NCBI GenBank assembly: GCA_031213475.1
Contig: JARUPZ010000009.1
Span: forward strand, 6,605,601 to 6,669,600
Source: Nereocystis luetkeana
Lineage: Eukaryota; Sar; Phaeophyceae; Laminariales; Laminariaceae
Direction of reading: 5' to 3'
DNA: 64,000 bases
The number at the start of each line of letters is the position of its first letter. Positions within the stretch are counted from its first letter, which is position 1. The translations under genes were made by a program, and so were the position numbers. Of this stretch, positions 9,373 through 63,599 are shown one piece after another. Under the pieces are notes generated by a model, which was given only the letters and a program-made list of their open reading frames with translations, made no database searches and was not told the DNA's origin.

Positions 9373-11084
9373 ATATTTGCCCCGCCGGTGGGTTCCACCA
9401 CATTATTTTCCGTTTCGTGGTTGTTTCGGCGTAAGGATATTGTCAACGCCCCGGTTTTTGTTTCGATTCCATAGAATACAGAAGTACGTTGAAACTTCCA
9501 CCAATGGTTGGAAGTTTAAACGCTTCCACTGACTTCTACTACCTCCACCAAGTTGCATAGACTTCGCTACTTCAATGCAAGTAACACGTGGAACAATCAA
9601 CGTGAGGTTTGAGATTTGATCGAAAGTTTCTTCACTCTCATGGAAGTATTTTCACTTCCACAAGGAAGGGCAAAAGAGATGTCTCCCTGACAGTAAATGG
9701 ACCACTGCAATGGGCGTATGTCTTACTAAAATCCACATACTTTTTCTTGCTTCACTGTAAGCGTTTTAACTTCCATGGACCAAATAATTACCTACTGAAT
9801 TTAGTCTCACTTTCAAAGAAAAATGGTTACATCCACGAGTCTCTGATCGGTGTCATTGGTGGACCCCCGGTTGATTTGGGGGGTGGCTTTTGTTTTTAAC
9901 GCGCAGTTGTGGCTAGTAGTTGTGTCCCAAGTATTAGGCCTTCACTGCGGGGTCAAGGTACTGGGCGGGACCATGGCAGAAGGAATTTTCTATGAAAGCT
10001 CAGTCAACGTCCATTGAAGCAAATCTTAACTTGGTTTTGAACGTACACGTGCCTTCCTGGAAGTTTATCTTCCAGGGCATTTGCTGGACGGGTTCGATGT
10101 AATATATGTTTACTCATTTCCTAGAGGAAGCGGAATCCATCTACATGTAAGTCAACGTTACTGTCATTGAGGGGAAACAAGTCCCATCGGGAAGGATTGC
10201 GTACTTCCATGCAACTTGTCATACAATTAGACTCAAAAGCAAAATATCTCGGGAGATCGCGCCGGCGTGGCGGCGATAGTACAACTACTTATTGTAGTTT
10301 GAAATAGGTTTGGTTAATACCTGTGGGATGGAAGTTTCATGGCAGGTTTGAAATGTTTGCCATACCTTCGATTGTAGTCGTGTGATATGTTACAAGCACT
10401 ACCACATAAGAAGCTCGCTGGAGCTGTGGAAATAGCAATGATGGACTGGGAAATGTCTGCCGGTGTACTGCTAATCAGGGTGCACACCCAACACGTCGAG
10501 CCAAGAGACAGTGAGCAGAGTTTGTAGCAACAAGTCACAGAGGGCAACATGCTGTGCCACGTATGACCTACAAAAACATTCAGCGATACTACAACCACAT
10601 AGTTCGCATCGTACCTGGTATGGAGACAAATATGTCTACTGAGAATACATGACTTCTTCTGATGTTCGCTGAAATACACACTCTTTGGAACCGTTGTGTT
10701 TTGTGGTGATACACGTTTTCCAATAATGGGGTGTATTAAACGAAGGGAACCTCGAGCGTATGTACGGCACACACTGTATTTTGCGTTGCTACCTCGCTGT
10801 ACATTCCCACGAACATAACTGCCTCGGATTGCCGACAAGAACTCATTTCTCCAGAAGATTGCTAGCGCTAGGAGGATGATAACAGCAGCAGTAGTGGTCC
10901 CGTGACATGTATCATAGACACGCAACCAAGAAACTTATTTGTGGACAGGGTGGATATCTCTCTTAAAACCGATTTCTCGAATATTTACAGCTTGCGGTGT
11001 TGGGGCAATTTTGCAAGCATTAAAAATTCCGGCATCTTGTCTTTTAGAGTGGGAAAAGCTTCACACATAGGACAAATCATATAT
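9373..11084. other. Spacer with clustered ACTTCCA/TGGAAGT words
   Basis: Between about 9490 and 10340 the words ACTTCCA, CTTCCA and TGGAAGT recur about ten times in both orientations, far more often than elsewhere in the window. Each sits in otherwise different sequence. A 203-codon minus-strand frame (10314-10925) starts with a hydrophobic stretch near residues 11-25. Its composition (Cys, Ser and Tyr rich) does not look like a known family, and I regard it as probable chance. One exact TACCTGGTA palindrome lies at 10612-10620. Confidence 0.45.
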
Positions 11085-11632
11085 ATCCTATTTCTGGGAT
11101 CTAGATATTTTGGGGCAGATAGATACCTGATCTAAAGGGATCTGCGGGATCTAGATCATGTTCGCTGTATAGGAGCTGTGCGATCTAGATCCTATGCACA
11201 CGTTTTCCTGGGTGGGATCTGTATGATTTAGATCTTACGTACATATTTCTGTTTGTGGGATCTATGTGATCTAGATCTTACACACACGTTTGCCCGGGCA
11301 TGATCTGTGTGATCTACCTGATCTACACAGGTTTGACTGGTGAGGTACATATGATCCGCGTGATCTAGATCACATATGCCTGGAGGGATCTGCATGATCT
11401 AGATCTTACATGCATGTTTCGGTAGGTGGGATCTGCATGACCTAGGTCATACATACAATGACATGTTTCGCCAGGTGGGATCTGCAGATTTACATGTTTG
11501 ATAAAGTGGGATCTGTATGACCTAGATCTTACATACATTTTTCGCCAGGTGGGATCTGTATGATCCGGGTGATCTGCACACACATGTTTGCCAGGTGGGA
11601 TCTGTATGATCCGCATGATCTGCCACATTGTA
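11085..11632. repeat. GATC-rich minisatellite, block 1
   Basis: Degenerate units of about 40-58 bp follow the plan GGTGGGATCTGTATGATC, TAGATCTTACATACA, TGTTTGCCA. Most units carry the perfect 10-bp palindrome GATCTAGATC or a one-base variant (for example at 11148-11157). Unit length and sequence vary, so this is an old array. The reverse-strand frames over it show only His/Asp/Pro repeat artefacts. Confidence 0.85.
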
Positions 11633-11954
11633 CTCGTAGATGAAGATGTACAAGTTAAGGTTTGCTCGCGGGTGGTTATATGCGTTGGCTCGTGTAAACC
11701 GAAACCGCTGTATAAGAGATCTCACATACATTGACGACATCGCAGCCCACGGTCGTGGAGGCGGATAGCAGCTTTGGCTCCCCCCCATCAACAACACAGA
11801 CACAGCTGCATAAGCACGCCGTCGCTTACAAACCACGTACGGCGTGACAACTGTCGGGAGCGGATTCTGACAGTGGCACTGGGGCAGCAGATGATGTCGG
11901 CAGCGGCCCGGAAGCGGGTACTCCGGCGGATCCCGGAGGCGAACCGATCGAGTT
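11633..11954. other. Unique island inside the GATC minisatellite
   Basis: About 320 bases with none of the repeat words split the array in two. It is GC-richer than the repeat and open on the minus strand as part of a 149-codon frame that extends into the repeat on both sides. I recognise no family. It could be an insertion or a captured flank. Confidence 0.5.
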
Positions 11955-12545
11955 GGATCTTGCACACACATTTGGCCGTGTGCGATCTGTATGATCTAGA
12001 TCGTACGCACACGTTTGCCCGGGTGGGATCCGTATCATGAAGATCTTACATACATGTTTCGCAGGTATTGGGATCTGCATTATCTGCGTGATCTGCACAT
12101 GTTAGCCAGGTGGGATCTGCATGACCTGCGTGATCTGCACATGTTTCACCAGATAGATGAGATATGTATGATCTAGATATTGCATACAGGTTTGCCCGGG
12201 TATGATATGTGTGATCTCCCTGATCTGCACATGTTTGCCTGGTGGAAAATTTATGATCTGCGAGATCTGGATCATATACGAGTATGCCCGGAGGGATCGG
12301 TATGATCTAGATCCTACATACATGTCTCGGTGGGTGGGATCTGTATGATGTAGATCATACGTATATGTTTGGCCAGGTAGGATCTGTAGATCTGCGTGAT
12401 CTGCACATGTTTGACGGATGGGATCTGTGTGATCTGCATGATCTGCGCATTCTTCGCCGGGTGGGATCTGTATGATCTAGATCTTGTTCACACTTTTTAC
12501 GTGGCTGTGAAAAAAAATCTACGTGATCGAGATCGTAGTCTGTCC
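11955..12545. repeat. GATC-rich minisatellite, block 2
   Basis: This continues the array seen at 11085-11632 with the same unit plan. Further GATCTAGATC palindromes lie near 11994, 12305 and 12474. Many units end in TTTGCCAGGTGGGATCTG. The array stops near 12545, about 500 bases downstream of the 3' side of the minus-strand gene at 13.0-13.6 kb. Confidence 0.85.
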
Positions 12546-15103: not shown

Positions 15104-16069
15104 TCCTGTAGAAGGTCCAAAAGGGGAATCCTTTCTTGTTGCGGGGTACTCTCAACTCGGGGTACACACTGTTGTATCTGCTGTACGGTTGAGTAGTAAT
15201 CGCCTTTCGCCAGGTGGTTTATGGCATGCGTCCCAGATATGTACGTACGTCCCACACACTTGTAGGAGTACCACTGCTGTACGCACATTCTTGTACGAGT
15301 AATAATAACGCTATACTCATACGCGTATATTTTTCTATTCTGATACTGCGGATAAAACCGGCATGCTTCCTGTGGGAAATGGATCGGGCGATATTATACC
15401 CGTAAAGATTCGGATCATATCCTTTTGAAACGGTTTATCTTTGCCCAAGGGGATACCAGGTATACCAACACGTGACAGAGCGAACGTAAGATACGTATAC
15501 CGTGCAAGAGGGCAAACTCGATCCCAGTGGTCGTATGGTCGAGTAGTCGAACTTTTGTGCAGCACAGACAGCCACCAGCCTCCCTCCTGGCGAAGCCACG
15601 GCACAGACAGGACCACAAATTTGCGAACAGGTGCGCACACACGTGTGGAGCAGGGGTAAAAGAGATGATAGGGTACCTGGTATCATGGTCTACTACTGCA
15701 TGCTGGATTGGTTTAAGGCAGGCGTGAGCGTTCCATGAAGAACCATCCAGTGCAGAAATACTGTTTTTTTGTTTCAGGTGAATCTTGACGTTCATTATTC
15801 TGCGCTCTGCATCTGATCCATCCAGGATTTAAGATTTGGCTACGTGCACAGACTGCCGTGGGATGCACACCCTTGCAGGGAACATGCCAGGTACCTGTTG
15901 CCACTTTGTTGGGCCACAATGGAGCGACGACTGACATATTGCATATACGCACCGACTATTTCGTAGGGATGGATCTTACCATGCAGCACCAGGATTGAAG
16001 ACAGTTACATTCACCCAGTTGCGCATGTTCCGAGCGACAGATATCCTACAATTTTGGGTTCACGTTTGA

Positions 16070-16323
16070 GGCGTGCTACGATTGAGGTTCCCCCTTATTT
16101 ATCGGGGGCTCCTAACTTAAGGGGCTCCATATCTCATCCGAAAGCTGACTTGATCAAAAATCAGCTTGCATACCGATTACTAATCCCATGACCGAAGTCT
16201 CCGACAACGTCATCTTTCGAAACAAGATTTGCATTCCGACGATTTTACGTTGAGGAACGCCGTCATCCAGAATAAGAAATATTATTAATAGCGGAAATGT
16301 GCTACTTCTATCGTAGAACGCGT
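16070..16323 (-). mobile_element. MITE family A, copy 2
   Basis: This is one of the best copies, in reverse orientation, with both ends visible. The left end is GGCGTGCTACGATTGAGGTTC and the right end GCTACTTCTATCGTAGAACGC, which are inverted repeats of each other with consensus GCGTTCTACGATAGAGGT. The interior shares GGCTCC, TAACTTAAGG, GGCTCC and AACAAGATTTGCATTCCGACG with the other copies. It is 254 bp long with no coding capacity. Confidence 0.8.
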
Positions 16324-16672
16324 CGTTTGCGGTAACCTTCTGTGCCGATAACAACCGGAAGTGATGGGACCTACCTTACCAGCAACAGTGCGGTTTCGTG
16401 GAAACATGGTAAAAACCAATTAGAGCAACGATATATATATATATTTCTTTTTGCTCATCCCATTTATTATCTTCGCACATCTTCTCCTCTCTCTCCTCCC
16501 AAGCCGTAACTCAGATCCGGGGTCACATGGCAGGCTCTTCTACCCCCTTCCCACTACGGTACGTGCCTTCATTTTTATCGCGAGAAATTTTCAGCCTTTT
16601 CTTCCCTCGTCGACTCGCATCGAATTGTGCCTACCATCGCTGCAAGGCGCTCTCAACAATTGAATCCTTGTC

Positions 16673-17146: not shown

Positions 17147-20100
17147 AATCATGATCGTGGACTCGCACTGCGATATCACCGTTCGGGTCATCGCTAATTT
17201 TTTCTTTATTATTATGTATAACATGGCGGGTTCCACCGGGCTCGCAATCTTACTTTTCTAAAGGCCAGATTTTGGGCGGGGTTTGCCGTCGAGCTTCTTA
17301 GGTCACGAGGCTTAGAATATTGTACGTGCGCGGTTGTTGCAGCCCCCATCCGCAACCTGTCCAGTGCCCGCAGCGTTCAACAACGCCATCGGAATAACTA
17401 GAGATCGTGTTACGTTCGGCCGCAGATGGTAAATACATACCAGGTATGGATGCACCCTGCCCACCGGCGCCAACCTCACTGGCGGACGCAGACCCCACTC
17501 AGGGAACTTAGACCGTTCTCTCAGCAACGGTATGCTGCTTAGCCGCCCACCCCGCTCGAGCTCGGCAAACCTCGGCACGATATATACGTGGCCAGTGGGG
17601 GGTGCCATCGGTATTGGTGCTAGTGGTATTTGAGTCAGTTCTCTTGTGAGACTCATATTCACATGCTTCTTGCTCTTTGCCATTTCACTGTTGATGTTGC
17701 AGCGGTCAACTCTGCAACCTTGTGGCAAGCTAAGGGGTCTTGAACATTTTTCTCCGAGGGGGATCGAGTCAGCCAATTACCCACGCACTCGCCTATTCTT
17801 TCATGGGGTCCCTATCTTTTGAGGGGGGGATTGATTAACATAATATATGATTGACTTGCACTAGTGTGAATCATTCAGTACTAACAATGCAGAGAGACGA
17901 TGCCAATTGCCCGCAATGTCAATCTCCCACCTTGTGTCCTGTACAATGTGGCGCCGGTCGACCAACAACAGTAGCATCCTACGGTCTGTAAAATGTCGAA
18001 ATGTTAATATCGTGGTGTCAACCTTGGGCATCATTCCTCAGGCGCAATCGGATGCTCGCTGAGCCGCCTTATAGTGCTCGCCCTTATCCAAGGTCCCTTC
18101 AAGAAATATATCTTCGCGTCGCCCAATCCTCAAGCGTTGCGTTCTGTGTAAGGGATTTTATGTTCGTGGGCGCATACCGCACTTCATATTGTGCTGGTGT
18201 ACAGCCCGGCTCGTACTTGATGCCACTTCGTTTCAAGAAGGGTATATATAGCCGTTCCAGCACCGCCGACGGGCGTCTCCATCTTCGGATTTGACGGCAA
18301 AGATTAAGGAAACGTTCATAGAGTTTCGCATAACCCTTTTTTTTATCTTTACGCTGGTTAATGACTCGGTACCCCTCTTGGCGAAGATGTCGCGGTGGGT
18401 TGACTCTATATCTATGTTTGCCTCGTCGTGTTGTCCGTGATATTTGCTTGCTTTAATACAGACTGCTGGAAAGCCCCCGAAAGCATGGCAATGGAAAGAG
18501 CCGGTCGTTCCTGGAGACTCCAGGTAAGCGCCCGGATTAAGGGGCAGTGTTGGTGATGTCATACATGGTGTTCAGTCGCGAGTGGCAGGGATCGGAAACT
18601 CGCGGGGCATACAAACCCTAGGCCACATGTGGCAGCAGACTGTTGCAGATTCAGGTAGTATTCGAATTGAACAATATAGCACTAAAGAGACATCATAATG
18701 ACTTCAGCTTGGTGTAGTAGCCACCGTGAACGTGTCCAACACCTGCGTCTGGCGCGATGTTAAGGGGGAGTCACTTTTGGTCCCTTTGCTTCTCAGATGC
18801 CCCGCGCCACTCGCACAAGTGACGTGTCTATTACTTCGCAGACTTAGTGAGTATTGAAACTTCTGTGTTCGGAGGTATGTATTACTATGATCAGAACTGT
18901 TCTTACCACGAGCTGCGATACCAAACTAGTCCCATGTCGAATTTTAAGTGAGATACAGAGCCTCGCCCTAGTAGCCTAGACGCGGGAAACATATATGGGG
19001 GCTAACCCCCTCTACCCTTGAACAAGCCGCGCAGAACATGCATGCCGATTTCCGAACCTGCCACGTCAGAAGGCGTTCATTGTGTTTGGGGCTGTTGCCG
19101 TCGGTGACCTGACCCATCAGCGGATGCAGAGGATAATATTATGCCGTACGATTTGCTGTTGGTATGTTGTTGTTGCTCTTACTGTTCGGCGCGCTTCCTC
19201 TTGTTACGACTGCATCATGCTTCAGGTTGAAGCCTTCAGCAGTTGTACAGCACAAACGATAGGATAGTCCTGTTCTGACAGCGGTTGAGGCGTGTCATCA
19301 TTGACCTCAATCAGTTTAGGCGGTACCCTTTTCGCGAAAAACGCCTGATTTCGATCAAGGCTGGTTCCCATAAGTACAACACGATGGATGTATATATGTC
19401 TCATTGTCGCGTCGCAGTCAGTGCACGAGGGTGAGTTACAAAGCTCCATGCCACTCGAAGGGGATCATGCTGCGGTAGCCGGGGTACCCGGTTTAGCTCA
19501 TGCCGCCGAGGATTAGCCGATCTAAACCTCGCCCCCACACGGGTGTTCCATAGAGACAGTTGTACGTGCCCCATCAACATAGAAACTAGACGTAAAACAC
19601 GCAGAGGGTGTAGAGGATTGCCCAATACATTTTCGATCGATGGGGAAGACCAAAGCTACTCCCACCGTCTACCTTCTCATGGCTCGCGAGCAGTGAAAAG
19701 GCCGGATCCTCAGCCCGCTTTAGAGCGCCCGGGAAGGGCACACAACTGTCGGCAAGGCTTGTCGAGGCACGGAGTCGTTCTGTCACACATCGAGAAGTTC
19801 ACGGGACGGAAACAGATGAGGAATGGTATATAAGTTCACATATTTATTTGTGAAAATAAATGGTAAAGTAGTGAAGACATAGCAAATCGCGCAAAAACCA
19901 CCGCGCCTCAAATCTAGATGTTCTGAGCAATAAATACACCATATGATAGCAACGGCCCTCAATTTACCGTATCACGAGTCTTCGTTTAGTACCTATTCGA
20001 GGCGGGGGTTAGTTACATTAATGGGTTTCCGAGTGGAACGGCCGGAACCGCACCCCGACACGTGATAGTCTCGGCACATTGTTAATCGATTATCATGATC

Positions 20101-20861: not shown

Positions 20862-21111
20862 TTGTTCTACGACAGGGGTACCACCTTTCCGGTAATTTGT
20901 TTTTCTGAATGATCGGGTTTCTTCACCCAAAATCGCCCGAATGTCAATCTTGTTTCGATAAATTTAATGACGTTTTAGTAGACTTAGGCCATGGCCTTTA
21001 TTCATCGGTATGAATTTTGGATTTCGCTCAAGTCAGTTTTCTGGTTAGGTATGAAGCTCCTCATGTGAGCAGCCTCAGAAACAATTAGGGCAAACCTCTA
21101 TCGCAGAACAC
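20862..21111 (+). mobile_element. MITE family A, copy 3
   Basis: This forward copy has both ends. The left end is TTGTTCTACGACAGGGGTACC and the right end CCTCTATCGCAGAACACA. The interior shares GGGTTTCTTCACCCAAAATCG, CTTAGGCCATGG, TTCATCGG, GCTCAAGTCAGTTTTC and AGCCTCAGAAACAATTAGGG with the other copies. About 250 bp, non-coding. Confidence 0.8.
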
Positions 21112-26675: not shown

Positions 26676-27814
26676 GCGGGTCACCCCTTCCGCAAGGGCG
26701 TATCTAGCGCTTCCATGGAGGTACCCGAGAAACAGTCTACTTTTTTTGCCGACAACCTGCGCGGCCAGACCACCGACGAGTTCAAACGTGCGTTGAGCGA
26801 GAAGTGTAACACTCTGCTGTGGCTGTTGCCCCCGAACTGAACCGACGAAGTGCAACCTGTGGATTCCGGCTACGGGACGCTCTTCAACGTCTACGTTGGG
26901 CAGGCTCTGGACAAGTGGCTTCTTGACGGCGAAAACGTAAAAAAGTGGGAGTTCAACAAGCTGACGGCTGCGGATCGTCGGATCTTGATCACGCAATGGA
27001 GCGGAGAGGCAGCGAAGAAGATCGACAGTAACACTGCGTACCGCAAGCGCCTCTTCGACGAGACGGGGCTAGCGATGACAGCGGATGGCGGCGATGGCGA
27101 CCTCCCAAATCTCCAATGCGTAGAGCGGGGCACGTACTCCTTCATCGAGGTTGATACTACACCGGAACCGTTGGAAGACGTGCTACCGATCTCGCCTGTT
27201 CCCGCGGATGAGGGGAAGCCGACAAGTTCAAGCGACGAGAAGGAAGGTAACAGCGAGATGGGGCAAGAGGTTGACGAGAAGGCTGTGCTGAACATGGACG
27301 ACGACATCGCTAACGGTGAGGCCTTACTTCTGTTTGAAGTCTCTGACGGTTATTCTTTGGAAGCTCAGCACCTGCCGCCCTCACTCGGAATCGTGTTAAA
27401 CAAGAGATACTGCTTCGGCAGGGGATGGGTTGGTTCAGGGGGATCATCACACGAAAAGCCCAAGAACAGACACGCCATCGCTACGACTTCAGAGTGTTTC
27501 TCGAGACCGACCCCAGCACACGTAGCATGAGACTTCCACTAGCCAAGTACACGGTGGATGGGGCCACGGCAGAGGGATCGTGGGCGCTGCTATCGCGCTG
27601 CGCGGATAGGGACTCTACTGAGGACAGCGTGAGCGAGTTCGAGGAAGAGGAGGACGAGGAGGAGGACGAGGAGGAGGAGGAGGAGGAGGAGGAGGAGGAG
27701 GAGGAGGAGGAGGAGGAGGAGGAGGAGGAGGAGGAGGAGGAGGAGGAGGAGGAGGAGGAGGAGGAGGAGGAGGAGGAGGAGGAGGAGGAGGAGAAGGAGG
27801 ACGGAGAGGAGTAG
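26676..27814 (+). pseudogene. Decayed pogo-like (DDE) transposase, C-terminal half
   Basis: The plus-strand frame holds the second half of a DDE transposase. FADNLRGQTTDEF (second catalytic Asp) lies near 26750, LLWLLPPN near 26817, and then QPVDSGYG (third Asp) near 26853. These blocks, and the RLFDETGLAMTADG block near 27050, match pogo-like transposases I know from stramenopile genomes. A TGA at 26838-26840 sits between PPN and TDE, where the family has Cys. After residue block ALLLFEVSDG and a linker, a frame change near 27420 leads into GWFRGII...YDFRVFLE, a small chromo/Tudor-like module seen behind such transposases. It ends in a run of about 58 mostly Glu codons and a TAG at 27812. 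The 5' half, with the DNA-binding domain and first Asp, is missing. Non-functional. Confidence 0.7.
27641..27813 (+). repeat. GAG/GGA trinucleotide expansion
   Basis: About 173 bases are nearly pure GAG, with GAC or GAA interruptions at the ends. In the transposase frame they encode an acidic tail; the long uninterrupted centre looks like slippage expansion. The plus strand is purine-only, a potential triplex-forming tract. Confidence 0.9.
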
Positions 27815-27829
27815 GAGGACGTGGAGGAG

Positions 27830-29270: not shown

Positions 29271-31984
29271 CAAAAATAAACGTTACTATTTTGTCTTTCG
29301 ATAAAGGCCCAGCACAGACATGTGCCTACACACGTTGTCGCACCAAGCTCGACCAACTGTGAACGGATTTCCACCCCACCAGGACGAGAAGGTGTCCTGC
29401 GTGTGTGCGTGCACAGAGCCCACGGGGACTGGAGTTGGAGACGTGTGCGTCGAGCGCGGTGGTGAAAGGTGGACTAAAAAATGTTGAATCACACACAACA
29501 ACCCACACACATCACACACACATACAGACGAACTCAAAACAAGGCACCCTACCCTCGTATACGAGCCGCGAGTAAGATTTTTGTTTTTCCTTGGTTAAAC
29601 TAAGGAAAAAAAAACTCGCTTCGCTCGCGCGGCTCAAAATGATATTAATTGTAAAAAAATATTGTGTTTTGAATCGACGCAAATAGTATGGGCGCGCTTA
29701 CGGATGGCATGCGTTCACACCTACACATTTTACAGCTACTCTCAATCCTTTGGAATAATACCATGTATGTTTGAGGGAATGCTGCTGCAGGTACTTCGTA
29801 CACTCACTCGCAGTATTTCGAGGGTTTCGTACTCCAGATACTGCGAGCACTAGCAGTATTTTGATATTTTGTACCAATACTGAGGATCCATTGCGCATAC
29901 TTGCGCGCTCGCACATATTCGGGGTTCGCTACAGCTGCTGTCGTAGATGCACCCTGTTGGGCTTCAAGTACCGCGGCTCTGTGTACCGCGGGTACTGCCG
30001 GTACTATCTCGGGGGGGGGCTAGTTAAAAAGATCAAATATTCTGAGACAAAATGGTTTAAAATATAGGTTTTTGTTTATACCATAGGTCCTACCTGGTAT
30101 CATCTATGGTCCCCGGTAATAGTCTATCTAGCAGTACTTTTTCATCGCTTGGTACCGTTCGTATTGCTTCTTCTGCGAGCACTCGCAAAACCGAAATATC
30201 GTCTATATGCCTAGTATACTTTGAATATGAAAACTATTTTGAACGTCTCTGCACCGTGTCGACAGATTGTCCGGCTTATGGTTCGGCACAAATTTCTACC
30301 AAATTGTCCCACAAGTGGCAGTTGGAGCTATTTACTTTTGCTGGGGACAACCCGAGTACTTAGGGCAGCACTGGCAGTATTTACAACATATTATGCACTG
30401 CGAGGAATAGGGTTTCGATATTGCGGGAACGTTTTTGCCTGCGCTCCCGGGGTTCGGTACTGCTCATACTCTTATTACCCTTAGTGTTTGGGCCTTTTCA
30501 ATACCCGCAATATTTTGGTCGCCAGTACGTTGATACTCTCAATACTCGGACTCTGATTTGTTCTCGATATTATATACCTGGTATGTATGTGAAACCTTCA
30601 TGCTACCCTGTGCACCAACAAAAGCATATTTTGGGGGCATCTATACATTTCTTATTCGGTGTGTCTTGCTTAGCCGGGCACAAAGCATTATGGCGCAACC
30701 TCGACATCACGCAACACTTCTGTACTTTCGTTGACGCCGCAAACACTGAACTGATCGCCCGAGTCATCTGTTCAGGATCAATCATAACTTACCCGCACCA
30801 TTTTTTTATGTTATCCTAGTGTTGATCCGGTACTAATTCCGCAAACAGAACAGTCTGTCCTCAAATACATTCGTGTTCGTTGTTCACGTCAATGGTGGGT
30901 GGGTACAGCTACGACTACAAAGCAGGTGCGCATAAATTAACAAGAGTATAATTGCTCTAGGGCCATTCCCCTAGGCACCTCCCGCAAAGGAACCCTGTAT
31001 TATCATGATCAAAAACATATGTAATGTGCCTCCAAAACGGGACCGCGGTGATCAATACGCACAGCATTCGCATGATTGTTCATGTTTTGCACGTTGTGCT
31101 GAACAAACACCCCCTTCCACCGTCTGCGTTGAGTGGTAGGCATCAAAATGATTTATTTGGCTTGGTTTTTTATATTTTTCGTGAGCACAAGAATGTTTGA
31201 TCGTTATCGCGTACCAGGTATTCATTAGATCACGTTCAGACCCCCCCCCCCCCCCCCCCCGCCGTCCCGGACTTGAAACAATGTTATTTTAGACAATCCA
31301 AGTATTTTCGTTGATGTTTTTTGTTAGGACTACTAGTCTAATCCGTTGGAAGTTGCATCTAATCCGTCCGAAGTTGTTTGGGTATTTTTGGGAAGTGGTC
31401 AAAAAGGGGTACACCCCCCGCGCGTTTTAGCGATATTGCGGTATAGGCATTATAACGACCGCGCGAGATGTCCCCAGGTCCCTCAACCGTCTACGACTTC
31501 AATATTGATGCGCTGTCAAGGCGCGCGCAGCCCATGCCGAGCATGCCTGTCTTTTTTGTTTCATTTCGGGCACGTTTATGTGGCTCACGGCACAACCGCG
31601 CAAGGGGAGTAGCACTAATTCCTCGTTATGATAAAATGTTACGTGGGTATGCCCCCGCATATATATCTAGCGACTATATGTGATACCCTCGTGTGACCAT
31701 CATCTTAGCCCCCTTTGACCGAGTCACTACCTCGCGATGACCACTTATCACAGCCCCAGGCACATATCCGAATATATTGTACACGTCACTCTATACAGCA
31801 GCCCCAACATACCAAGGGCGAAACATCCATCGGCTGCGAGAGGTCTGATCGAAATAAGCGGCGAAACACACCTCACTATATTAAACACGTCCATGCAATG
31901 TAGGGACAAGCACCGAAAATACCAGTAGTAGTGAAGTGGCTGGTTGATTTATTTCGGAGAAGGGTGTTTGTCGTAGGTTTCCAT
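29271..31984. other. Spacer with a cryptically simple tract
   Basis: No gene is recognised. From about 29780 to 30560 the words GCAGTA, TACTGC, GTACTG, AATACT and AGTATT recur in many arrangements without a fixed period. Three exact palindromes TACCWGGTA fall here (30091-30099, 30575-30583, 31212-31220). A C20 tract lies at 31241-31260. Confidence 0.4.
30103..30120. mobile_element. Single arm of hairpin family C (relic)
   Basis: CTATGGTCCCCGGTAATAG matches the outer end of the hairpin element at 55346-55454 (ATGGTCCCCCGTAATA). The partner arm is not seen nearby. A similar fragment, GCGGGGGACCATATG, lies near 63190. Confidence 0.4.
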
Positions 31985-32500
31985 GAGAAGAGGGGGAATA
32001 GGAGGGGCAATATAGCCTGATTTTTTTCCTTTTGTTTTTTAGGGTGGAATACGTAAACATAGCAAGCTTTGCGGCGTGTACCAGATAACAATCAGAAGAA
32101 AACAATGCGATAGGTGGGTGTGTGGGGTCCGGTGGAAGTGCGTCCTGTGTACCAGGTCTATAATGAGACATTGACTGCTCTCAGCAGACAGCAACAACAG
32201 GCAAAAAACAAAGCAACACAGTGAACTCGAACACACGGCAACATCGAATAGTACACGCGTCCCCAGCGGTTTCAAGCGTGAACTGTTGCTGTCTGCTGAG
32301 AGCTGCCAGTGTCTGCTTATTGACCTGGTACACACAACCCACTCCCATCCCCGCCCCACCGACCCCCCCCCTTTTTTCCTCCGATTTTATTCGGTACCTG
32401 GTATGTGGGAAAAAGCGGTATGTTCATTTATTTTTTAATTATTGTTTTTTTTCAAGGCATTTGTCGTGCCGTGTGTGTTTTTCGGTAATATCAATGGAGA
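31985..32500. mobile_element. Long imperfect foldback (inverted repeat) element
   Basis: The arms, about 220 bases each (31985-32205 and 32280-32500), pair along their whole length with mismatches and small gaps. A 20-base perfect match lies at the inner edge (32177-32196 with 32284-32303). The loop is about 87 bases. Matching features on each arm include GTGTACCAGGTC (32147) with GACCTGGTACAC (32322-32333), and GTACCAGATA (32078) with TACCTGGTA (32395). Translations of the arms also show a shared LFSSD..YLV block, as expected for copies. It looks like a foldback transposon or an old head-to-head duplication. Confidence 0.75.
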
Positions 32501-35500: not shown

Positions 35501-36454
35501 GTCTTGTGAAACATCAGTGCATTACCGGAAGTGCCGACTGCAGGTATTCAGTACCAGAGCTATGTCTACGATATCGTGAATACCACTTTATGTGACCAAC
35601 AAAACGTTTGAGCTGGTTGGTCCTTGAACGTTTTATAGTTTATACCACGTCCACCTTTCAACCCAAGCTACGGCGTGTGCTTCGTTTTGGGTTTTGTTTA
35701 AGACATATCTGGTCGCTCTGATTGTTGGTCTATACATTTTGCCCTAACGTAGTTCCTTATGCCCTCTGAAATCACAGAGTATAACTGCGCGTCGTTGACG
35801 GGTCGACGGAGGCTCACAAAACACGCGCGTACTATGTCAGGATCGAGCTGTCATTTAACCCGCGAACACGTTGACGTCTGCGTCGGAGACGTTCATAGTT
35901 GGTGTATGCTTGGCAGCTACTTGATGTAGTGGATGGTCTTGATTCAGCACACATATTACTTGCTATTCGTCCAACGAAGTCCACCAGTCGAATATTTGGG
36001 TGAAATCACTTAGCTACACGCGTCAGAGTATCTTTAACCCGTTTGTTGAGAACAATGGATGAAAAATGCCTAGTGTTCGTACCTAATGTTTGGCTGACTG
36101 TTACTGACATTTATGTAGGCCCCGGGGTCGGTCAATTTACATTTTCGGTGCTAGCGCTACGTCTGGAACCTCGGCCGCCGTTCTTCGAGGTCGGTATGCT
36201 CAAACGTATGTGGCATTGGTGTAGTTGTGGCAAGGGGGCATCGTGGCTGATGCCACTATAATTCGTTTACCGTTGACTAGCTCGTGCCTAATACGGAAGT
36301 CTGAACCTGTTTTACGTGGCCAACGCAAGCATCTACGGTATGTGGATTGGTTTGTATTGCTCTGGTACAAACAACACATCCTTCACGTAATACCAGGTAT
36401 GTGACAGCTTTTTTGTAGCCACTATAGAAAGAACACTTCGGATGCGCAGAAGTA
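32501..36454. other. No recognised gene; spacer
   Basis: Frames up to about 100 codons show no recognisable product. One exact TACCAGGTA lies at 36391-36399. I see no RNA gene or repeat family. Confidence 0.4.
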
Positions 36455-36612: not shown

Positions 36613-36966
36613 TTGTAAAAAATCCCCGGGGTGGCCAGGGGATGCCTGGATACCATCGCCTGTTTTTTTCACTTTTCCCATAATTCCCGGCGCCATGAGG
36701 CGGTCATTCGAACAAAAATGGTGCAAAACTATTTTTCGTTAATTTTAAATTCCGCGTCACTCACGCGCCACCACACTCCCCACGGCACGACGTGGACACA
36801 CCAGCAACGTTTCAGCAGCAGCTGCACCATCTACAGCGGAGGCAAAAAGCCGAACACCACGCAACAGTGATGAAAACCACTGGGAGACACCCCTCTTCAA
36901 GTACAAGTACAGCAGTACCCCGCCGCGCCCCCCCCCTCCAACGGTGCCCCCCCCTCTCCCACGGTT

Positions 36967-41363: not shown

Positions 41364-41592
41364 GCGTTCTTACGATAGAGGTTCCTTTTTTCTGAGGCTC
41401 TCAACTTAAGGAGCTCCACCCCTCACCCAAACCCTGGCTTGAGCTGAAAGCAAATTGCATCCCGAAGAATAACCCCATAGCCCGAGTAGACTAAAATATC
41501 AAGTTTCGATACATGATTGGCGTTTCGACGATTCTGGGTTAAAGAGCCCCGTCCTTCAGAGGCATCTAAGCGGAAATGTGCTACCCGTAATG
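41362..41592 (-). mobile_element. MITE family A, copy 4
   Basis: Reverse orientation. It starts with AGGCGTTCTTACGATAGAGGTTCC (family terminal repeat), then TGAGGCTCTCAACTTAAGGAGCTCC, TTGAGCTGAAAGCAAATTGCATCCCGA and CGACGATTCTGGGTTAAAGAGCCCCGTC. It ends in GCGGAAATGTGCTACC without a clear outer terminal repeat. Its left border coincides with the stop codon of the coding-like frame at 41043-41363. Confidence 0.75.
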
Positions 41593-41921
41593 TAAAACTC
41601 GTCTGTTGCTGCGAGTTTGGCTCAACGTTCGCCATTTCAGTGGTTTCCGCTCTACGTGAAACCTGTGGCTTTCAAACGTATCAAGATCAGACGCATATGT
41701 CATTGCGGTGATGCCCGTGCCAGTATTTTGTCACGTGGCGACCCGTAGCTCCCGATCACCGTCCTGACAATGCTTCACCCCGGGGTGGGCACTGACCGTA
41801 GACTGGAGCCGTTTTATATTTCGTGTAGCCAAGTAGACGTTGCGTTGATCGTTTCTGCTGACCCGCAACAGCCTCACAAAAAAATGAACTCTCATGAAAT
41901 TTACAACGAAACTACAAAATA

Positions 41922-41955: not shown

Positions 41956-43085
41956 GTCAGAAACCAATTGAACTCCATATCCTGACGAAACGAAAACACT
42001 CTCTAAGGAAAAAAGACATGAAGAAGACGTTTTGAGCTTAAACCGCTGGAGCTGATATTATACCACAAGAAGGGTTCAATTCACGACGATACGACGTCTG
42101 TAAATACCTGCTGTACGTAGTCCGTTAAGTAGTTCAATATCGCCTGAAGCCAATGAGAAAGCGTTGTCTAGCCGAAGCCCTCTGATGCAACAAGCTCGGA
42201 GCGAAACAGTGATCGCCCCCCCTCCACCCGATTAACACAGCGAAAAGTAGCCAAGAAGGACATGTAATAATCACGAGGGAGGTATGATATACCCACCAAA
42301 CAACACTATTTCTCCCCAACAACGCCGACAAGTATCCAAGAAACAGCACAGCCGGAACGGACCGAAGTCTCGTACTCCTTACTGCCTCAGATGAATACCT
42401 TCAAACTGCATCAGGAACCTCACGTACTATTCAGTGCACCGCCCAATTCGTTCAAAACTCGACAATGTCATCGATGCATTCTAGTGGCTTCGGTGTGATG
42501 GACTAACGTTCAATCGGTTGTGTTGGCATCTGATCGGGTAAATTCGTGATTTTCTATGTTGAACGCGACGTCGTTAACACCTGCGTATGCTTCACAGCCG
42601 TTTACGTCGTACAGTAATCGTGCATCGCTTCAGATGCCGGAGGAAATACTCTCCTCGGTCCGTGGGGCACGTGAAGGCCCCACCTCGTGTGATCATGAGT
42701 CGGGGTTGATGCGATTGGACTCAACACAAAGAAAGAATGACGCAGGTGTAGGAACGGTCAGGAGTTCAGCCGAAACTGCTGGTATCGCAGGTGTCCAGTT
42801 CACTCGGTCGGCGGATTCGTCTAAAAAAAAGAGCCGTGACGTTAGGGCAAGTCTTAGGTGAACCTTTACCTGTCAACGGGGTGAACCGCGATAGATTTTA
42901 ACCTGGGCTGAACATTGGGGTAGCTTTACCTCATGGATGGCGTTTAAAGATGGGGGATAAAAGCGTCCGAATTTTTCGAAACATTCAGCATACGCATGCT
43001 CTTGGCGACCAGAGTATGGAACGGTGCTTTGCGTGACGTACCACGGGTGCGGTTGGAAGAGTCGGCGGCGTATCCCATCCTTGAC
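41956..43085. other. No recognised gene; spacer
   Basis: A 101-codon plus-strand frame (42556-42861) has Ser/Thr-rich composition and no family match. Nothing else stands out. Confidence 0.4.
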
Positions 43086-43272
43086 ACGTTCTACGATAGA
43101 GGTAGCACTTTTCCGCTCAAATGGTTTCTGCATGAAGGGGTTCTTCAACCCAAAAAATCGTCGGAATGTCTATCTTGTTTTGAACAATTACCTTTTCGTA
43201 TACTCGGGCCATTGGAGTATTCATCGGGATTAAATTTGATTTTTGCTCAAGACGGTTTTCGGGCGAGTAAGC
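43086..43272 (+). mobile_element. MITE family A, copy 5 (3' truncated)
   Basis: Forward copy starting ACGTTCTACGATAGAGGTAGCAC, then TTTTCCGCTCAAATG, GGGGTTCTTCAACCC, AAAAAATCGTCGGAATG, TCTTGTTTTGAACAAT, CGGGCCATTGGAGTATTCATCGG and GCTCAAGACGGTTTTCGGG. The family's last 50 bases, including GGAGCTCC and the right terminal repeat, are missing. Confidence 0.75.
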
Positions 43273-54126: not shown

Positions 54127-54935
54127 CTGACGTGTTTCATAATTTTATAAAATAACGGTGGACCTTTCTCGTACTCGCTCCCGTCGGGAAGTTCGAAAGT
54201 GGTCCCAGTACTTTTTTCCGACGCCGTCGAAATTACACCCTAAATAAACTTCCCTGATTTTTCCCTTTCATTCGCTTAGGCACAGGGCCAAATATCCGAC
54301 GATATCAGTCCCAACGTACATGCGAACCAATCGATCGAAGAGGTGTGGTAGCTTTCTACTGCTGTATGTGCATACGCCTGCGGACGCGATACAGCAGTAC
54401 CTGGTACCTGGTATGTTTTAGCGGGAAATCGCTTGTGCTCATAGCGTGTCTACATATATATACTTCGAAGCGTATACGTAAGTGTGCAGGTACATCTTTT
54501 GCACACAATAATATGTACGAGGGGCAATAACATTGATATTGTGACGTATTTCATAATTCTTTAAATTAACGGTGGACCTTTCTCGTACTCGTTCCCATCG
54601 GGAAGTTCGAAAGCGGTCCCAGTTTTGTTATTGGCGCCGTCGAAATTACACCCTGATGGTTCTTCTCTGATATTTCCCTTGCATTCGCCTAGGCACAGGG
54701 CCAAATACCCTAGCACAGCAGTCCCAACGTACGCGAACCAATCCATAAAAGAGATACGGTAGCTTCTTATACTATACGTGCATACGCCTGCGGACGCGAT
54801 ACAGTAGTACCTGGTATGTGTTCGCGGAAAATCGCTTGTTCTAACAGCGTGTCTTCATATAACCTTCGAAGTATAAATGTAAGTGTGCAGGTACATCGTA
54901 TGCTCACAATATATATGTACAAGGGGCAATAATAC
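54127..54935. repeat. Tandem duplication, two diverged copies of about 410 bp
   Basis: 54127-54540 and 54541-54935 align along their length. Shared blocks include ACGGTGGACCTTTCTCGTACTCG, GGGAAGTTCGAAAG, GCCGTCGAAATTACACCCT, CATACGCCTGCGGACGCGAT and GTAAGTGTGCAGGTACATC. Copy 1 has TACCTGGTACCTGGTA (a 7-base duplication of the window's palindrome) where copy 2 has a single TACCTGGTA. Confidence 0.85.
54561..54746 (-). CDS. Possible small membrane or secreted peptide, intact in copy 2 only
   Basis: The minus-strand ATG frame of 61 codons begins with a hydrophobic stretch (YVGTAVLGYLALCLG, residues 6-20), then two Cys (ECKGN, GCNFDG) and an acidic tail. That would fit a signal peptide or anchor followed by a short domain. 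The homologous frame in copy 1 (54140-54330) has a TGA after the hydrophobic stretch and a one-base length change after GCNFDG, so it is broken. Whether copy 2 is expressed is unknown. Confidence 0.25.
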   Translation of the reverse strand: MDWFAYVGTAVLGYLALCLGECKGNIREEPSGCNFDGANNKTGTAFELPDGNEYEKGPPLI

Positions 54936-55345: not shown

Positions 55346-55454
55346 TATTACGGGGGACCATAGTTAATAGGACCTGTGGTTCACATAAAAACCTATATAT
55401 TTACCCATTTTTACTAACAATATTTGGTCCTATTAACAATGGTCCCCCGTAATA
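55346..55454. mobile_element. Hairpin family C, near-perfect MITE
   Basis: Two 29-base arms (55346-55374 and 55426-55454) pair at 28 of 29 positions. The outer end is TATTACGGGGGACCAT and the inner end AATAGGACC. The loop is 51 bases. The TA/TTA at each outer end could be the target duplication of a TA-specific element. Single-arm relics lie near 30103 and 63190. Confidence 0.85.
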
Positions 55455-56044
55455 GCATGACGACTCAGAACGTCTGAATAATAATAGTACACGTGGTGAG
55501 AATGGTGCTGCTCTACGCAGGTTCTCCGGGGATCCGTGTCTTCTTATTCTACCACTTCGCGCCACAGAGTACTACTGCTGAAGGTGGCGACCACCTACTA
55601 CGACAGAATTGGAGTGTCTGGTCTACCGACGCCGTGTCTTCTGGTTTTTGTTCTGAACAACAACAACAGGACTGTTTTCCCATCCTACCTACTAACTTCG
55701 CCCTTACACTCCTGCCTCCGTCAAGCAATAGTCGTGACTCGTCATAGTATATATATACGTAAATGGGTTCACAAAGTAGTTTCTTCTTCCCCCCTCCCTC
55801 TAAAGCAGTTAGTTGTTACTGCTGTAGCACGCGACACGTATTGTTCATTCCACACTTAAAAATTGGAGGTATAATGTACCAGGGTCTTTCAATTTTGAGT
55901 AAAATACCGCAAGCAGTAGCAATCGCAAAAGCACCTAAGGACACTATAAATAGTCTAGATCTTGCAGAATAGAGCCTGTGCTCAAACGTTGACATCACAA
56001 TATATCACAACCCTTCAGCCAAAACAAAAAACTATCAACCCCGT

Positions 56045-56123
56045 TAGTACTGCAGTCCCGACTTGGGGACAAACTAGTCTAATTCCCCAAGTGTTTCGTC
56101 CCAAAAACGGGGCTGCAGTACTA
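56045..56123. mobile_element. Hairpin family B, copy 2
   Basis: TAGTACTGCAGTCCCGACTTGGGGAC (arm at 56045-56070) pairs with GTCCCAAAAACGGGGCTGCAGTACTA (56098-56123) across a 27-base loop. The outer TAGTAC/GTACTA are also complementary. It shares its arm sequence with the elements at 49.6 and 61.9 kb. Confidence 0.8.
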
Positions 56124-58269
56124 AGACTACGGCTGTACAGCTGTGATACAACATGGGGTATGAATGTGCCTTGTTTTGTTCTGGAGGAGAGAAAATCCCC
56201 TTTTGGCGTGTAGTTGCGGTACCTCTAGCAGTTTAAATCTCCATGCATGATCACCATGTTGCACATATTTTCAGAGTAGAAATGAGTAAGCGCCGACTTG
56301 CGCGAGACTTCGAAGTGGATGACCTGGTTACGCCGTGACTTGGTGAGGCACTTATTCATAGGCAACCGATAAACCCTTTTAGCGCAATCTACAGTAGTAT
56401 GTAGTTGCACTTCTGTTTCATCTGTGCGCAGAGTTCCATATGTGTTACTGTGGTACTAGGCTCATTGTTATCGGTGAGCTTTTTTCCAAAATTTCCAAAG
56501 TTTGGAAAAATTGGGAGATACCTACCGATATACGGAGGCGTTCTGTCACAATTCGTGAAATTCTCCGGAAGCAACAATATCAAGTTCGTTGACATTCCAA
56601 TATTTGGAAGAAAAAAAATACAGGAAAATATGGAAGATGGAAAAATTGCGCAAAAACAATGTCAAAAAATTGGGGAAAAAAAACCTTTCCGATAAGAATG
56701 AATGACCCTCAGTCTTGCGGAGATACTCATTCACAAACTAACTGTCAACGTTGAAGTTCATGCTACACCGTCATTGTCGGGTGGTGAGCCCATAATTACA
56801 GCGATGGAAGTATATACTGGTATGTACGTATGCCTTGTCTTCCATACCAGGTATACACAGACTGCAGTTTACCTGCATGAAGCCAAATGAAACCCGTACT
56901 CGTATTATTAAGGGTAGTACGCTATATCGAGGTATGATGCGTTTCGACGGACTCTTCGATTTCCCAGATAGATGCTTGTTCATTGGGTTTATATATGTAC
57001 GGACTTGCCGCTAGGAGCTCGCGCAGTGGGATATTGGTAGTATTTGTAGCAATGGGTGTGCTTTGGTTCATTGGGTGAATATTATATGAAGGCCACGCGC
57101 CGATAGACACGTAACATACTTTTAACACACACGTGCCGCGTACCGGTGTATACGTAAAAACCAGAGACTACAGTTGATGACCGGCAAAAAGATGAAAGAA
57201 CCGGTAACTGAAGTAGGAGGTGCGTATTTCTGGAAGATCAGTTGACGATGTTTCCGTCAATCCCTGTTGCGGTCAAGACGAACGAAAGGGCCTTCGCGAA
57301 CCAGATCACAAATGTTCAGGTCTCTGATGATGTGTGATATTATTGTTGAAAATCTCGAGGGTGGCACCGATTTAACGCAGACGATTGCATGGGGTTGATC
57401 GCCCGATGTTCTCGTAGTGCTCCATTCATGGATCACAAAATCACAAAGAAGACAAGGATGTTGAGTGTTGATAGGAAAACAAGGTGCACGAGTTGACGGC
57501 CGACAGGTATTTCCACAATATCGCACGCAAGAGGGACCGAGCGTGCTCCGCCCCCAACAGTAGTGCAGAAAGTACCGAATAATACGAGAGACAGGTTTGA
57601 AAATCTAGAGTCTAAAGCGATGGCAGTAGACATTCATCGTGCGAAGAGAGAGCTATGACTACTTAGCTCTTACCTATGAAGGTTTTGCGAGTCGCCCGGC
57701 AACACACATAGAGCAGTCGTGCGTGACTTTTAAATATATTATGGTAAATACGTTTGTACGAGGTACATACATGAGTATTCTTGATTGTGAGCGGTAGTAT
57801 GTCTCGGGCCTCCGATCCGAGGTACGCTATGTATCGAAAATTCAAAACAAAACAAAATACCGGTACAACAGGTAACGAGTAGTGTGAAGAGCTGCCATTC
57901 GAGCTACTACTACTGTAGAGCACGCGCCAGGTACGCAAGGTTGATTTTCGTAGCATTGTTATAGAATGCAAACCTGCACCCCCTGGGAGCACCTAGGCGG
58001 CATCTATGCGAATCTAAACGCCCCCTTTGTCATCCCTGGATGATATGGGTCATCCCCGGTGTAGGGGTCATCATTGTTACCTATTGGCAATGTTGGAATC
58101 GCGTATTCGCGGGAGGCAAAGGGTTCAGGTCAGGGTCAGTGACATCCCTTGTATAAACAGCGCATTTCACCCGTCGACTTCCAGCATCGCCTGGGCGATC
58201 CTGCCGATTCTTCATTTTTTGGGAACGCAAGTCCTATATGGGTCACGAAACTAAGACACAGAGATGCCA
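56124..58269. other. No recognised gene; spacer
   Basis: Frames up to 109 codons overlap on both strands; none is recognised. The 89-codon minus-strand frame at 57257-57526 is Cys/Pro-rich and unassigned. One exact TACCAGGTA lies at 56845-56853. Confidence 0.4.
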
Positions 58270-59381: not shown

Positions 59382-59893
59382 CAGTGTCGTCGAGAGCATG
59401 ACGTAAGAAATAAACTGCTCGAGCTACGGATACCGAGACACAAGCTTGAGGAAGAGGTCGCACTCGCCGTGGAAACCTTACGAACGCTGTTTTCAAGCGG
59501 TACGCGGCGTGACACATTTCGGTGATGGTGGGTGCCGATCGTGAACGAGAGAATTCAACTTATCTACGAGGAGCATGAAATTCAAACAGCGGTCATGAGG
59601 ACACAAGATCAACAAGTGTTGGCGTCAAAAGTGACGAAGAAGCAAATGAAGAGACATACCTGGTATATAACAAGGACGGGAGAGAAGGGAGATGCTGGCC
59701 CAACAGAAGCAGGACGGGAGAGAAGGGAGATGCTGGCCCAACAGAAGCAGCACGATCCCACCAAAGGCAAGTATGAGCCGCACCTTGGTTGATTCGCTTG
59801 ACACCGGTGTCCAATGCGTTGAAATCTAGCTGTTGCAGACGCAGGAGAACCTTCAGCAGCACCGCAAGCAACAACAGCATTCGGAGGGTTGAT
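59382..59893 (+). pseudogene. Broken gene for a helix-rich protein, unknown family
   Basis: The plus-strand reading is protein-like and strongly helical: NKLLELRIPRHKLEEEVALAVETL, a TGA at 59521-59523, IQLIYEEHEIQTAVMRTQDQQ, then ERREMLAQQKQHDPTKGKYEPHL. After a frame change near 59785 come VDSLDTGVQCVEI, a TAG, and a Gln-rich QTQENLQQHRKQQQ tail. An exact 38-bp tandem duplication (59675-59712 and 59713-59750) lies inside and shifts the frame. TACCTGGTA (59657-59665) lies just before it. The Leu/Glu/Gln periodicity suggests coiled coil. I cannot name the family. Confidence 0.4.
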
Positions 59894-61176: not shown

Positions 61177-61741
61177 TGATATCTTATATGGTCTTTAGAA
61201 AGTGCTTTCTAATTGTAGTTCACATTCGAGAATTTGAATTATACGGTGGTAAAGGAAGTGTTCAGGTTGCCAACGAAGGATAACGGATAAAAAACTCAAG
61301 TGCGACCTAATCGCTCGGTTACCCGACCCGCCCTTTGTTGTTTCGAGTCAATGCTGTGGAGGCGACATCTCATCTGTCCCAGGAGAAAACGCAGGAGGCC
61401 CAGAACTGCGTTGAGCCCATGAGACCGGAGGGAGAGGCAGCCGCGGCGGAGGAATCAGCACTGTAGTGTTTGCTGTATTGGGTCGTACTTCAACAAAACG
61501 TGGTTTCCTATTACTACGGGTGAACGATTTCATTGTGGCTTTGAATTGTGCCTCCTGTCTATTTTTTCTGTCTGAATTCGGGAGGGACAAAAATGACTCT
61601 ATTTTATGTACGAAATTTAATACGAAAGTTGGAATAATAATATTTTGAAGTGCGTGTTCTGGTCAGACTGCATCCCCGAAATTCAATCTGAACGTATGTA
61701 AAAGCAAGTTTCATACCTGGTATAACAAAGAAAACATAAGA

Positions 61742-62090
61742 GGCGTTCTACGCCAGAGGTTCACATTTTTTTTTCCGAGGCTCCCCATTCAAGGAGCTCC
61801 ATACCTCGCACGAAAACAGACTTCAGCAAAAAAAAACAAATTCCATCCCGATGAACAATTCCATAGCCAGCCCAAGTATGCGAAAACATCATTATTGTTC
61901 GAAACAAGGTTGGCATTCCGATGATTTAGGGGTGACCCAGAACTGCAGTCCCGTTTTGGGGACACCTGACTCAAATCCTCCAAGTATTTTGTCCCCAAAA
62001 CGGGACTGCGGTCCTAAAAGGATGAACGGATCCCGTCATTCAGGAAGTATATTTGCGGAAATGTGCTACCTCTATCGTAGAATGCGTTAC
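61742..62090 (-). mobile_element. MITE family A, copy 6, carrying a nested hairpin
   Basis: Reverse orientation with both ends. GGCGTTCTACGCCAGAGGTTCAC at the left and GTGCTACCTCTATCGTAGAATGC at the right are inverted repeats. The interior has CCGAGGCTCC, CAAGGAGCTCC, TTCCATCCCGATGAACAATTCC and GTTGGCATTCCGATGATTTAGGGG, as in the other copies. It is about 80 bases longer than the rest because a second hairpin element (61938-62016) lies inside. Confidence 0.85.
61938..62016. mobile_element. Hairpin family B, copy nested in MITE A
   Basis: AACTGCAGTCCCGTTTTGGGGAC (61941-61963) pairs with GTCCCCAAAACGGGACTGCGGTC (61991-62013) with two mismatches across a 27-base loop. Comparison with the five other family A copies shows this block is absent from all of them. 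GGGGTGA to the left and GGATGA to the right may retain a short target duplication. Confidence 0.85.
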
Positions 62091-63599
62091 AGTGCAAACG
62101 TTCCGCTTCGCGTCCACCCGCAGCAGGACAGCTTAGGTGGACCAAAATAACCAGGCGTTGACACATCAAATAAAGGTATTGCTACGACTATCGTATTTTT
62201 AGTTGAGTAGGTTTTACGATGTGTGAGATCGGATCTTTAAGGGGTGGTTTTTACTTCAACATTGAGCCGGAGCATAGCCAATCATATTTCCCCGGTGGCC
62301 TATGATCTTTAAGCTACGGATAAAATGAGTCGGAGGGATCGTTTTTTTATTGCCAGCAATATACATAGTACTGTACAAAGGGGGCGATTGTTTTGCGTTG
62401 ACAGAGTCGGTTGTTCAAAGGGCGCAAGCATTCTCAGTTTACGCGGCAGAACGACCAGGATTGGGGAGATTGTGAAACGTTTCGGGGCGCGTGATGTCCC
62501 TGTTGGAAACTTTTGTCCTCATCGAACGGGGTTTGACCTATCTATACTTGAATTATAAACAAAGATCGCATGTAGACGGCGTTTCTGTGGCTACGTTCGT
62601 CTAGTGTTAAATTTGAAGTCGTTCGTTCAGCTAGGCCCCGCAGTGGATACAAGAAGTTTCGGGGCAAGCTGGGTGGACTAGATTGTCGGTGTGGACGAAT
62701 AAATTCTCCAGATCCTTTCAGCGAGAAATGTTGTTTTCACTATATAACTTGCCAAAATTCAAGAACAATGCTGCTTTCACCCCGAATTATAATTGAAGAG
62801 TGTTATATGTTTCTAGCAAAGGAGGCTGGTAGTTTCACGATCAGGGTTTGGATTTGAATATTTATTGTAGTTTATGGAAGCAATAGGTTTACAGGGAGCA
62901 GACCTGATTTGATTCCTGAGTTTTCCAAGAAGTCTGATCTGAGTACATGACAGGAGGCTGTCTGGGGCGCTATCTGCAATAAATTACGTAGGAAATGCAC
63001 CTATGCCGAGAACTCAAAGAGTAATACCCCCGCTGCCTGGGGGGGTGTCAGAGTGACGACTCGCGGATACGCATAGAAATAAGATTAATCGAATCATCAA
63101 CCACCATGAAAATATCAACGTTTGCCACGCCTACCCTGCCAGTCAGACAAAAAAAAGAGATAATCGGTGATATGACGTCCCTGATGATTGCGGGGGACCA
63201 TATGAAAAGTATGCCACTCGCCAAAAAAAGAAAAAAAACGAGCGACGTAAATAAGAGTTACCTGGTACATGCTACTGCCTCGTGAAGCAAAACATATAAT
63301 ATACGAAAGCCACTGTTCCCGTGATTGAGCGCGCGCCGGTCGCGTATTTTTGTGTGCCGTCGTTCCCCTGTCCTTCATGGCCGTGTCATCGCCTTAGCCC
63401 CATCGGCTTCCTTTGCACAAGCTCTCGTTTGCACTGCCTTCTAGTCGGGTGGCCTTCGCTTCCGTCTCAAAAACTCAAAACACTTCTTGCGCTTTCGGTT
63501 CTGATATGAGATGAACCAGAAATTCTTCATCATCATGGTGAATTTAATCCTATTCTTCCCCGCTCCTCGATTATGAACCCCCCTCTTCCTTCGTCGTCT
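62091..63599. other. No recognised gene; spacer
   Basis: Frames up to 87 codons are unassigned. TACCTGGTA lies at 63259-63267, and a GCGGGGGACCATATG relic of hairpin family C near 63190. Confidence 0.4.

Follow-up and report, generated by a model that had tools for sequence, protein, structure and literature searches.

The palindrome TACCWGGTA was examined in a 64,000 bp stretch of the genome of the brown alga Nereocystis luetkeana (assembly GCA_031213475.1, contig JARUPZ010000009.1; C9:6605601-6669600), referred to below as the window. The assembly contains 465,085,209 bp in 1,987 contigs. TACCWGGTA parses as TA + CCWGG + TA. It occurs exactly 16 times in the window, and all 16 positions listed in an earlier note on this DNA were correct. 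Exact matches, given without strand, lie at 10612..10620, 15454..15462, 15674..15682, 17438..17446, 30575..30583, 31212..31220, 36391..36399, 56845..56853, 59657..59665 and 63259..63267. Two further exact matches lie beside repeats, one (32395..32403) at the right margin of a foldback (inverted-repeat) region, 32078-32397, and the other (61714..61722) 26 bp to the left of the start of a repeat alignment (~61740). The site at 30091..30099 is within a small TA-flanked inverted-repeat element resembling a miniature inverted-repeat transposable element (MITE). This copy is on the minus strand with approximate limits of 30001..30125 and ends that resemble TTACGGGGGACC. A related copy on the plus strand (55346..55455) has bare TAs and was used as an empty-site reference. 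A double site, TACCTGGTACCTGGTA, occupies 54398..54413, with words starting at 54398 and 54405. Its duplicated copy is a single exact match (54808..54816), a difference of 7 bp. The 16 sites correspond to 14 loci because 54398/54405 and 54808 share one tandem duplication, whose copies are 83% identical and both retain the word.

The expected number of TACCWGGTA in the window was 0.38, 0.51 and 0.44 under Markov models of orders 1, 2 and 3, close to the value of about 0.5 first put forward in the earlier note. Orders 4 and 5 gave 0.77 and 1.88, as these partly absorb TACCWGGTA itself. An order-3 simulation of the window gave 0.37. The next most common W- or S-centred 9-mer palindrome in the window occurred four times. 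Plain CCWGG was counted 126 times rather than the roughly 100 previously reported. TA..TA flanks were present at 16 of these 126 and every other flank pair at three or fewer, which bears out the proposal that the enrichment is tied to the flanking TAs. The one-base variants described earlier do exist. They number 16, compared to 11.8 ± 2.8 in the order-3 simulation, so that an excess is not clear in the window alone, and some of their coordinates required correction (40473 to 40464, with 7629, 47514 and 47731 each off by one). Clustering of sites at 10-17, 30-36 and 54-63 kb had also been suggested and was not significant in the window (largest gap p = 0.13; gaps under 700 bp p = 0.28). The A or T at the centre was considered as an outcome of random repair. 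This was rejected, as the word and its complement differ at the centre alone and the centre reflects orientation only.

TACCWGGTA was found 182,395 times in the whole assembly, or once per 2.55 kb, compared to 1,744 for the reversed word. The near-expectation count that would have removed interest in the word was not obtained. The density in the window, one per 4 kb, is under the genome average. Paired words with a common TA (TACCWGGTACCWGGTA) numbered 15,917 genome-wide compared to two for the control. Among the first 59 plus strand double sites listed, the centres, scored by eye, were the same in 40 (23 AA and 17 TT), A-T in 14 and T-A in five. This excess of like centres (p = 0.009) indicates that slippage may account for some of the doubling. 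Two samples were used for closer comparison. The first comprised the window and twenty 10-kb stretches, 264,000 bases in total including 2,500 N, and contained 93 sites. An additional 50 kb enlarged this to 314 kb and 115 exact words, and no exact reversed word was found in it. One-mismatch words numbered 133 in the 314 kb, compared to 65 under the Markov model and 48 for the reversed word. Such an excess of one-base variants is as for neutral scars. A divergence of roughly 6.5 to 8% per base is implied, with about half of the scars still intact. The total would therefore be perhaps 350,000 events.

The origin of the word was investigated by comparing sites with their paralogs. Once 7 bp had been removed from the site at 30091 (W_30091) and its flanks brought together, 11 of 12 alignments to paralogs ran across the junction without a gap. 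The same result (11 of 12) was obtained at site L066_7056. One gapless alignment each was found for L055_9581 and L056_8093, and neither was an exact absence under a stricter comparison. As a control, all 955 other TA-N5-TA words of the first sample were compared with their own paralogs. Exact absence of the 7 bp was seen in 20 of 30 alignments at TACCWGGTA (two present, eight other) compared to six of 427 at the control words (277 present, 144 other). Counted by site, exact absence was found at four of eight TACCWGGTA sites with paralogs and at four of 119 controls (p = 4e-4). Since the alignments are not independent, counting by site gives the fairer comparison. One control match (L055_9574) adjoins a real TACCWGGTA site. 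In the enlarged sample exact absence was seen in 50 of 70 alignments (four present, 16 other) and at five of 11 sites with paralogs. In these repeat copies the word is an insertion of CCWGG plus one TA, 7 bp in all. It arose at a TA with duplication of that TA, the clean cases coming from one MITE family.

This family, to which the copy carrying 30091 belongs, has 105 bp between its TAs, ends in TTACGGGGGACC and is present in 23 copies in the 314 kb. No insertion was present at either of the two TAs concerned in 17 of the 23. At the TA of ACC-TA-TATATTT four forms were found, CCAGG+TA, CCTGG+TT, CCAG+TA and CC+TA, each in one MITE copy. Four of the 23 copies thus differ in the scar form that they carry at the same TA. 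The second TA carried CCWGG+TA in two copies, including the one with window site 30091. End-joining after transposon excision yields such an outcome, in which a terminal sequence is present in several lengths at a single TA. The copies may share the ancestry of one insertion at the MITE TA, followed by separate later excisions.

Target preference was determined from the 97 non-tandem sites of the 115, using the collapsed target with both strands pooled. The preferred bases were R at -1, Y at -2, A at -3, A at -6 and A/T at -7 (p = 6e-7, 1e-3, 2e-2, 2e-7 and 5e-5, respectively; half weight). The Tc1 target consensus is given as CAYATATRTG (PMC9635669), and the preferences agree with it at -1 to -3. 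When the 14 window loci were scored against this consensus the match was 3.79 of 8 compared to 2.70 for all TAs (p = 0.0024). Target choice at TACCWGGTA is Tc1-like.

Other TA-bounded words were also enriched, with little conservation of their flanks. In the 314 kb, under order 2, TATTAATA occurred 71 times compared to 2.1 expected and TACGAGTA 45 times compared to 10.9, and each reversed word occurred four times. TATTAATA occurred 55 times compared to 5.5 expected in the 264 kb under order 3. TACAGTA was found 111 times in the 314 kb (48 expected under order 2; reversed word 44). TACAGCAGTA was counted 23 times (1.2 expected) and TACAGTAGTA 19 times (0.9 expected). Absence of exactly the expected size was seen at four of seven TATTAATA sites with paralogs (controls 16 of 119, p = 0.012), at two of three sites for TACGAGTA/TACTCGTA and at two of nine TACWGTA sites (controls eight of 94). 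TACAGYAGTA was enriched, yet exact-size absence was seen at none of its five sites with paralogs. More than one TA-inserting family may thus have left scars in the genome, a conclusion less secure than that for TACCWGGTA. TATTAATA, for example at L056 7096, L053 4568 and L059 6282, was 10- to 34-fold enriched across the two samples and models (264-314 kb; order 3, order 2) and resembles a 6-bp insertion (TTAA+TA) at TA. At a guess it may be the scar of the TTACGGGGGACC MITE. TACAGYAG / TACAGYAGTA, which we take to resemble a Tc1-type end, was strongly enriched in the window and in L049-L068 with unrelated flanks and no empty-site pattern (window examples 5236, 14411, 14470, 36908, 54390 and 18 others).

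Each TACCWGGTA is most probably the excision footprint of a TA-inserting, TA-duplicating cut-and-paste DNA transposon of IS630/Tc1/mariner-like type, or of its MITEs. The scar form and target choice point to the Tc1/mariner-type label. The transposon family, end sequence, overhang length, overhang polarity and mismatch step are all inferred. Sleeping Beauty provides the closest model. Its footprint at TA is C(A/T)GTA (PMC3878927, Table 1), and it is described as nicking three bases inside its ends to leave 3-nt 3' overhangs identical to the footprint (PMC7827188). The TA-C(A/T)G-TA of Sleeping Beauty and Tc1-mariner elements has the same TA duplication and W-centred odd palindrome as TACCWGGTA. 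An origin of the scar from 3' overhangs, known for Sleeping Beauty, is proposed here by analogy for the 5-nt CCWGG scar. The element ends would read 5'-CCAGG(G)...(C)CCTGG-3'. Excision would leave 5-nt 3' overhangs of CCAGG on both flanks, and these could base-pair at four of the five positions, the exception being an A:A mismatch at the center. Rejoining would give TA-CCAGG-TA (TA-CCTGG-TA on the other strand), and four paired bases of five would favor exact rejoining and hence a uniform dominant scar. Alternatively, a shorter overhang could come from ends reading 5'-CCA...TGG-3', rejoined with overlap. Of seven one-base-longer forms counted, TACCAGGGTA occurred 10 times compared to 0.9 expected and the other six between zero and two times. 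As the sole standout, TACCAGGGTA suggests that the end of the element reads 5'-CCAGGG.

TACCWGGTA differs from the Sleeping Beauty footprint in its length (5 nt compared to 3), in its 182,395 intact copies and in being known here from scars alone. Footprints of 0-4 nt are reported in active-element assays (PMC7913693, PMC9976928), a range below the 5 nt found here. Scars of grass Stowaway elements contain up to 4 nt of one end and 1-2 of the other (PMC1925063), and 5 nt, which falls within such combined fragments, would therefore not be outside the known range. The Stowaway and Osmar footprints of grasses similarly show TA duplication around short terminal fragments, with different fragments at one site (PMC1925063, PMC4561436). 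The fragments in those sources vary at single loci, whereas one form of TACCWGGTA predominates genome-wide. Most of 94 putative excisions in rice were irregular (PMC4423477), making the uniformity of the TACCWGGTA scars notable. In Ectocarpus, also a brown alga, Mariner-Tc1 elements of the same superfamily form 17 families with almost 12,000 copies, mostly non-autonomous, and the main text of that study contains neither "footprint" nor "excision" (PMC12477816). The word TACCWGGTA was not found in the open-licence literature searched, nor was a report linking brown alga, footprint and transposon excision.

A number of results weigh against an excision origin. The clean cases (W_30091, L066_7056 and L073_212) come from just two TA positions of a single MITE family, and the insertion events may therefore not be independent. 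Two of the four by-site absences in the first sample are in one MITE family. At L052_3808 exact absence was seen in one of five alignments and the DNA is locally repetitive, the 7-bp difference at 54398 could be slippage, and no exact absence was found at four of eight sites in the first sample or six of 11 in the enlarged sample. For the CC form at the MITE TA, a 4-bp tandem duplication (CCTA CCTA) is another possible reading. Shorter scars were not clearly enriched, as TACCAGTA occurred 28 times compared to 10.4 expected but its reversed word 21 times, and TACCTA 109 times compared to 125 expected. Comparison of 698 end pairs in 334 kb (127 sites) revealed no parent element whose ends match, the best inverted match being 11 of 15 nt. 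Among 135 TACCWGG ends without a following TA in the same 334 kb, no 8-mer occurred more than twice. The scar is longer than those of the active-element assays, and the rice excisions are far more varied. Two candidate parents in the window were rejected. The pair 32150/32330 has an inverted repeat that extends beyond the TAs and is not a clean element. The degenerate Tc1-like remains at 36.5-38.5 kb have inverted ends that read GCTAAATATTGGGCCGATTTGG.

Four other explanations were weighed against the excision footprint. A site for a homodimeric DNA-binding protein (regulator, insulator or origin factor), maintained by selection, would account for a palindrome with additional preferred flank bases, for its retention by both copies of the 83%-identical duplication and for one-base variants that show no clear excess in the window alone. 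This explanation is improbable, as the sites in MITE copies originate by insertion of 7 bp at a TA, the one-base variants are in clear excess in the larger samples, other TA-bounded words behave alike and 182,395 sites is, in our judgement, very many for a regulator. A self-copying micro-element, in which the 5-7 bp unit itself inserts at TA and no larger element excises, agrees with the lack of a parent in 334 kb and with the frequent tandem doubling (15,917 cases). It is rated as very improbable; the CCAG at the same TA looks like the trimmed end of a larger thing, and no mechanism that could mobilise 5 bp is known to us. Developmentally programmed elimination of TA-bounded elements, like that of the internal eliminated sequences of ciliates, with an assembly made from somatic tissue, would explain TA-bounded excision with 127 scars and no element in 334 kb. 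The decayed, varied scars instead resemble old germline events, and little probability attaches to it. An iterated word like cyanobacterial HIP1, maintained without insertion by a bias in mutation, repair or methylation of CCWGG, is the least credible of the four: TACCWGGTA shares with HIP1 a short palindrome of very high genome frequency (PMC4390886) and has a CCWGG core, but it is in a eukaryote, its enrichment depends on the TA flanks and the empty-site comparisons show that it is created by a 7-bp insertion at TA. A single repeat family was rejected, as the flanks of the sites, described earlier as mostly unrelated, do not align with one another, with flank information of 0.14 bit per position in a sample of sites. 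Among the meanings offered by the earlier note, the eroded end of a transposon and a favored insertion target came closest to the excision footprint, which was not on its list. A HIP1-like word and a binding or methylation site, also offered, leave the 7-bp insertions unexplained.

A number of other features were identified in the window. The Tc1-like remains (36481-38479) have 23-bp inverted ends and overlapping minus-strand open reading frames (ORFs) in different frames, with a weak, below-cut-off Pfam match to HTH_Tnp_Tc3_2 (E 0.003). The ORF at 26841-27527 is related to DDE_1 (PF03184) transposases and has 39 protein relatives, of which 14 carry this domain. Just two of the 39 are named, from the brown algae Pylaiella littoralis and Ascophyllum nodosum. 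The ORF is adjoined by a GAG repeat in another frame (27641-27829). The ORF at 39205-39837 matches an unnamed ENA protein (3,960-bp contig) with 99% identity over 92% and has no Pfam match. A second MITE-like family of about 180-350 bp with ends near CGTTCTACGATAGAGG has copies at 61740-62087, 16068-16324, 41362-41602, 43083-43267, 6238-6464 and 20865-21109. The copy at 61740 contains a nested inverted repeat of ~80 bp (ACTGCAGTCCCG...), which is also present at 56046. A satellite-like array of ~43-bp units rich in GATCTAGATC lies at 11172-12512. No Rfam match was found in the window. A scan of IMG/VR with a 15-base version of the word returned 40 loci, and the best 25 of the 40 by density had at most two sites each. 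No relatives of P0001 were found in viral contigs, none of DDE-transposase alignment A1 in viral or prokaryote contigs, and window positions 36800-40000 had no match in phage records.

What would be new here is the uniformity and number of the scars, a uniform self-complementary 5-nt scar in this number. The papers cited here follow transposon scars at individual loci or by the tens. With 182,395 intact, dateable scars of apparently one element, the number of jumps, target choice, age and repair outcome could be measured directly. Such a genome would show that a vanished element can shape its host by its departures, leaving about one intact scar per 2.5 kb. It is also a caution that a palindrome found in excess in a eukaryote may be a scar rather than a binding site. 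A tentative and rather doubtful extension is that the hundreds of thousands of near-uniform scars in a brown alga were made by a TA-inserting transposase whose stagger was 5 nt and self-complementary, while the elements themselves were almost wholly lost. If true, the scars would be a genome-wide fossil record of single jumps or, more boldly, the mark of a programmed removal of TA-bounded elements.

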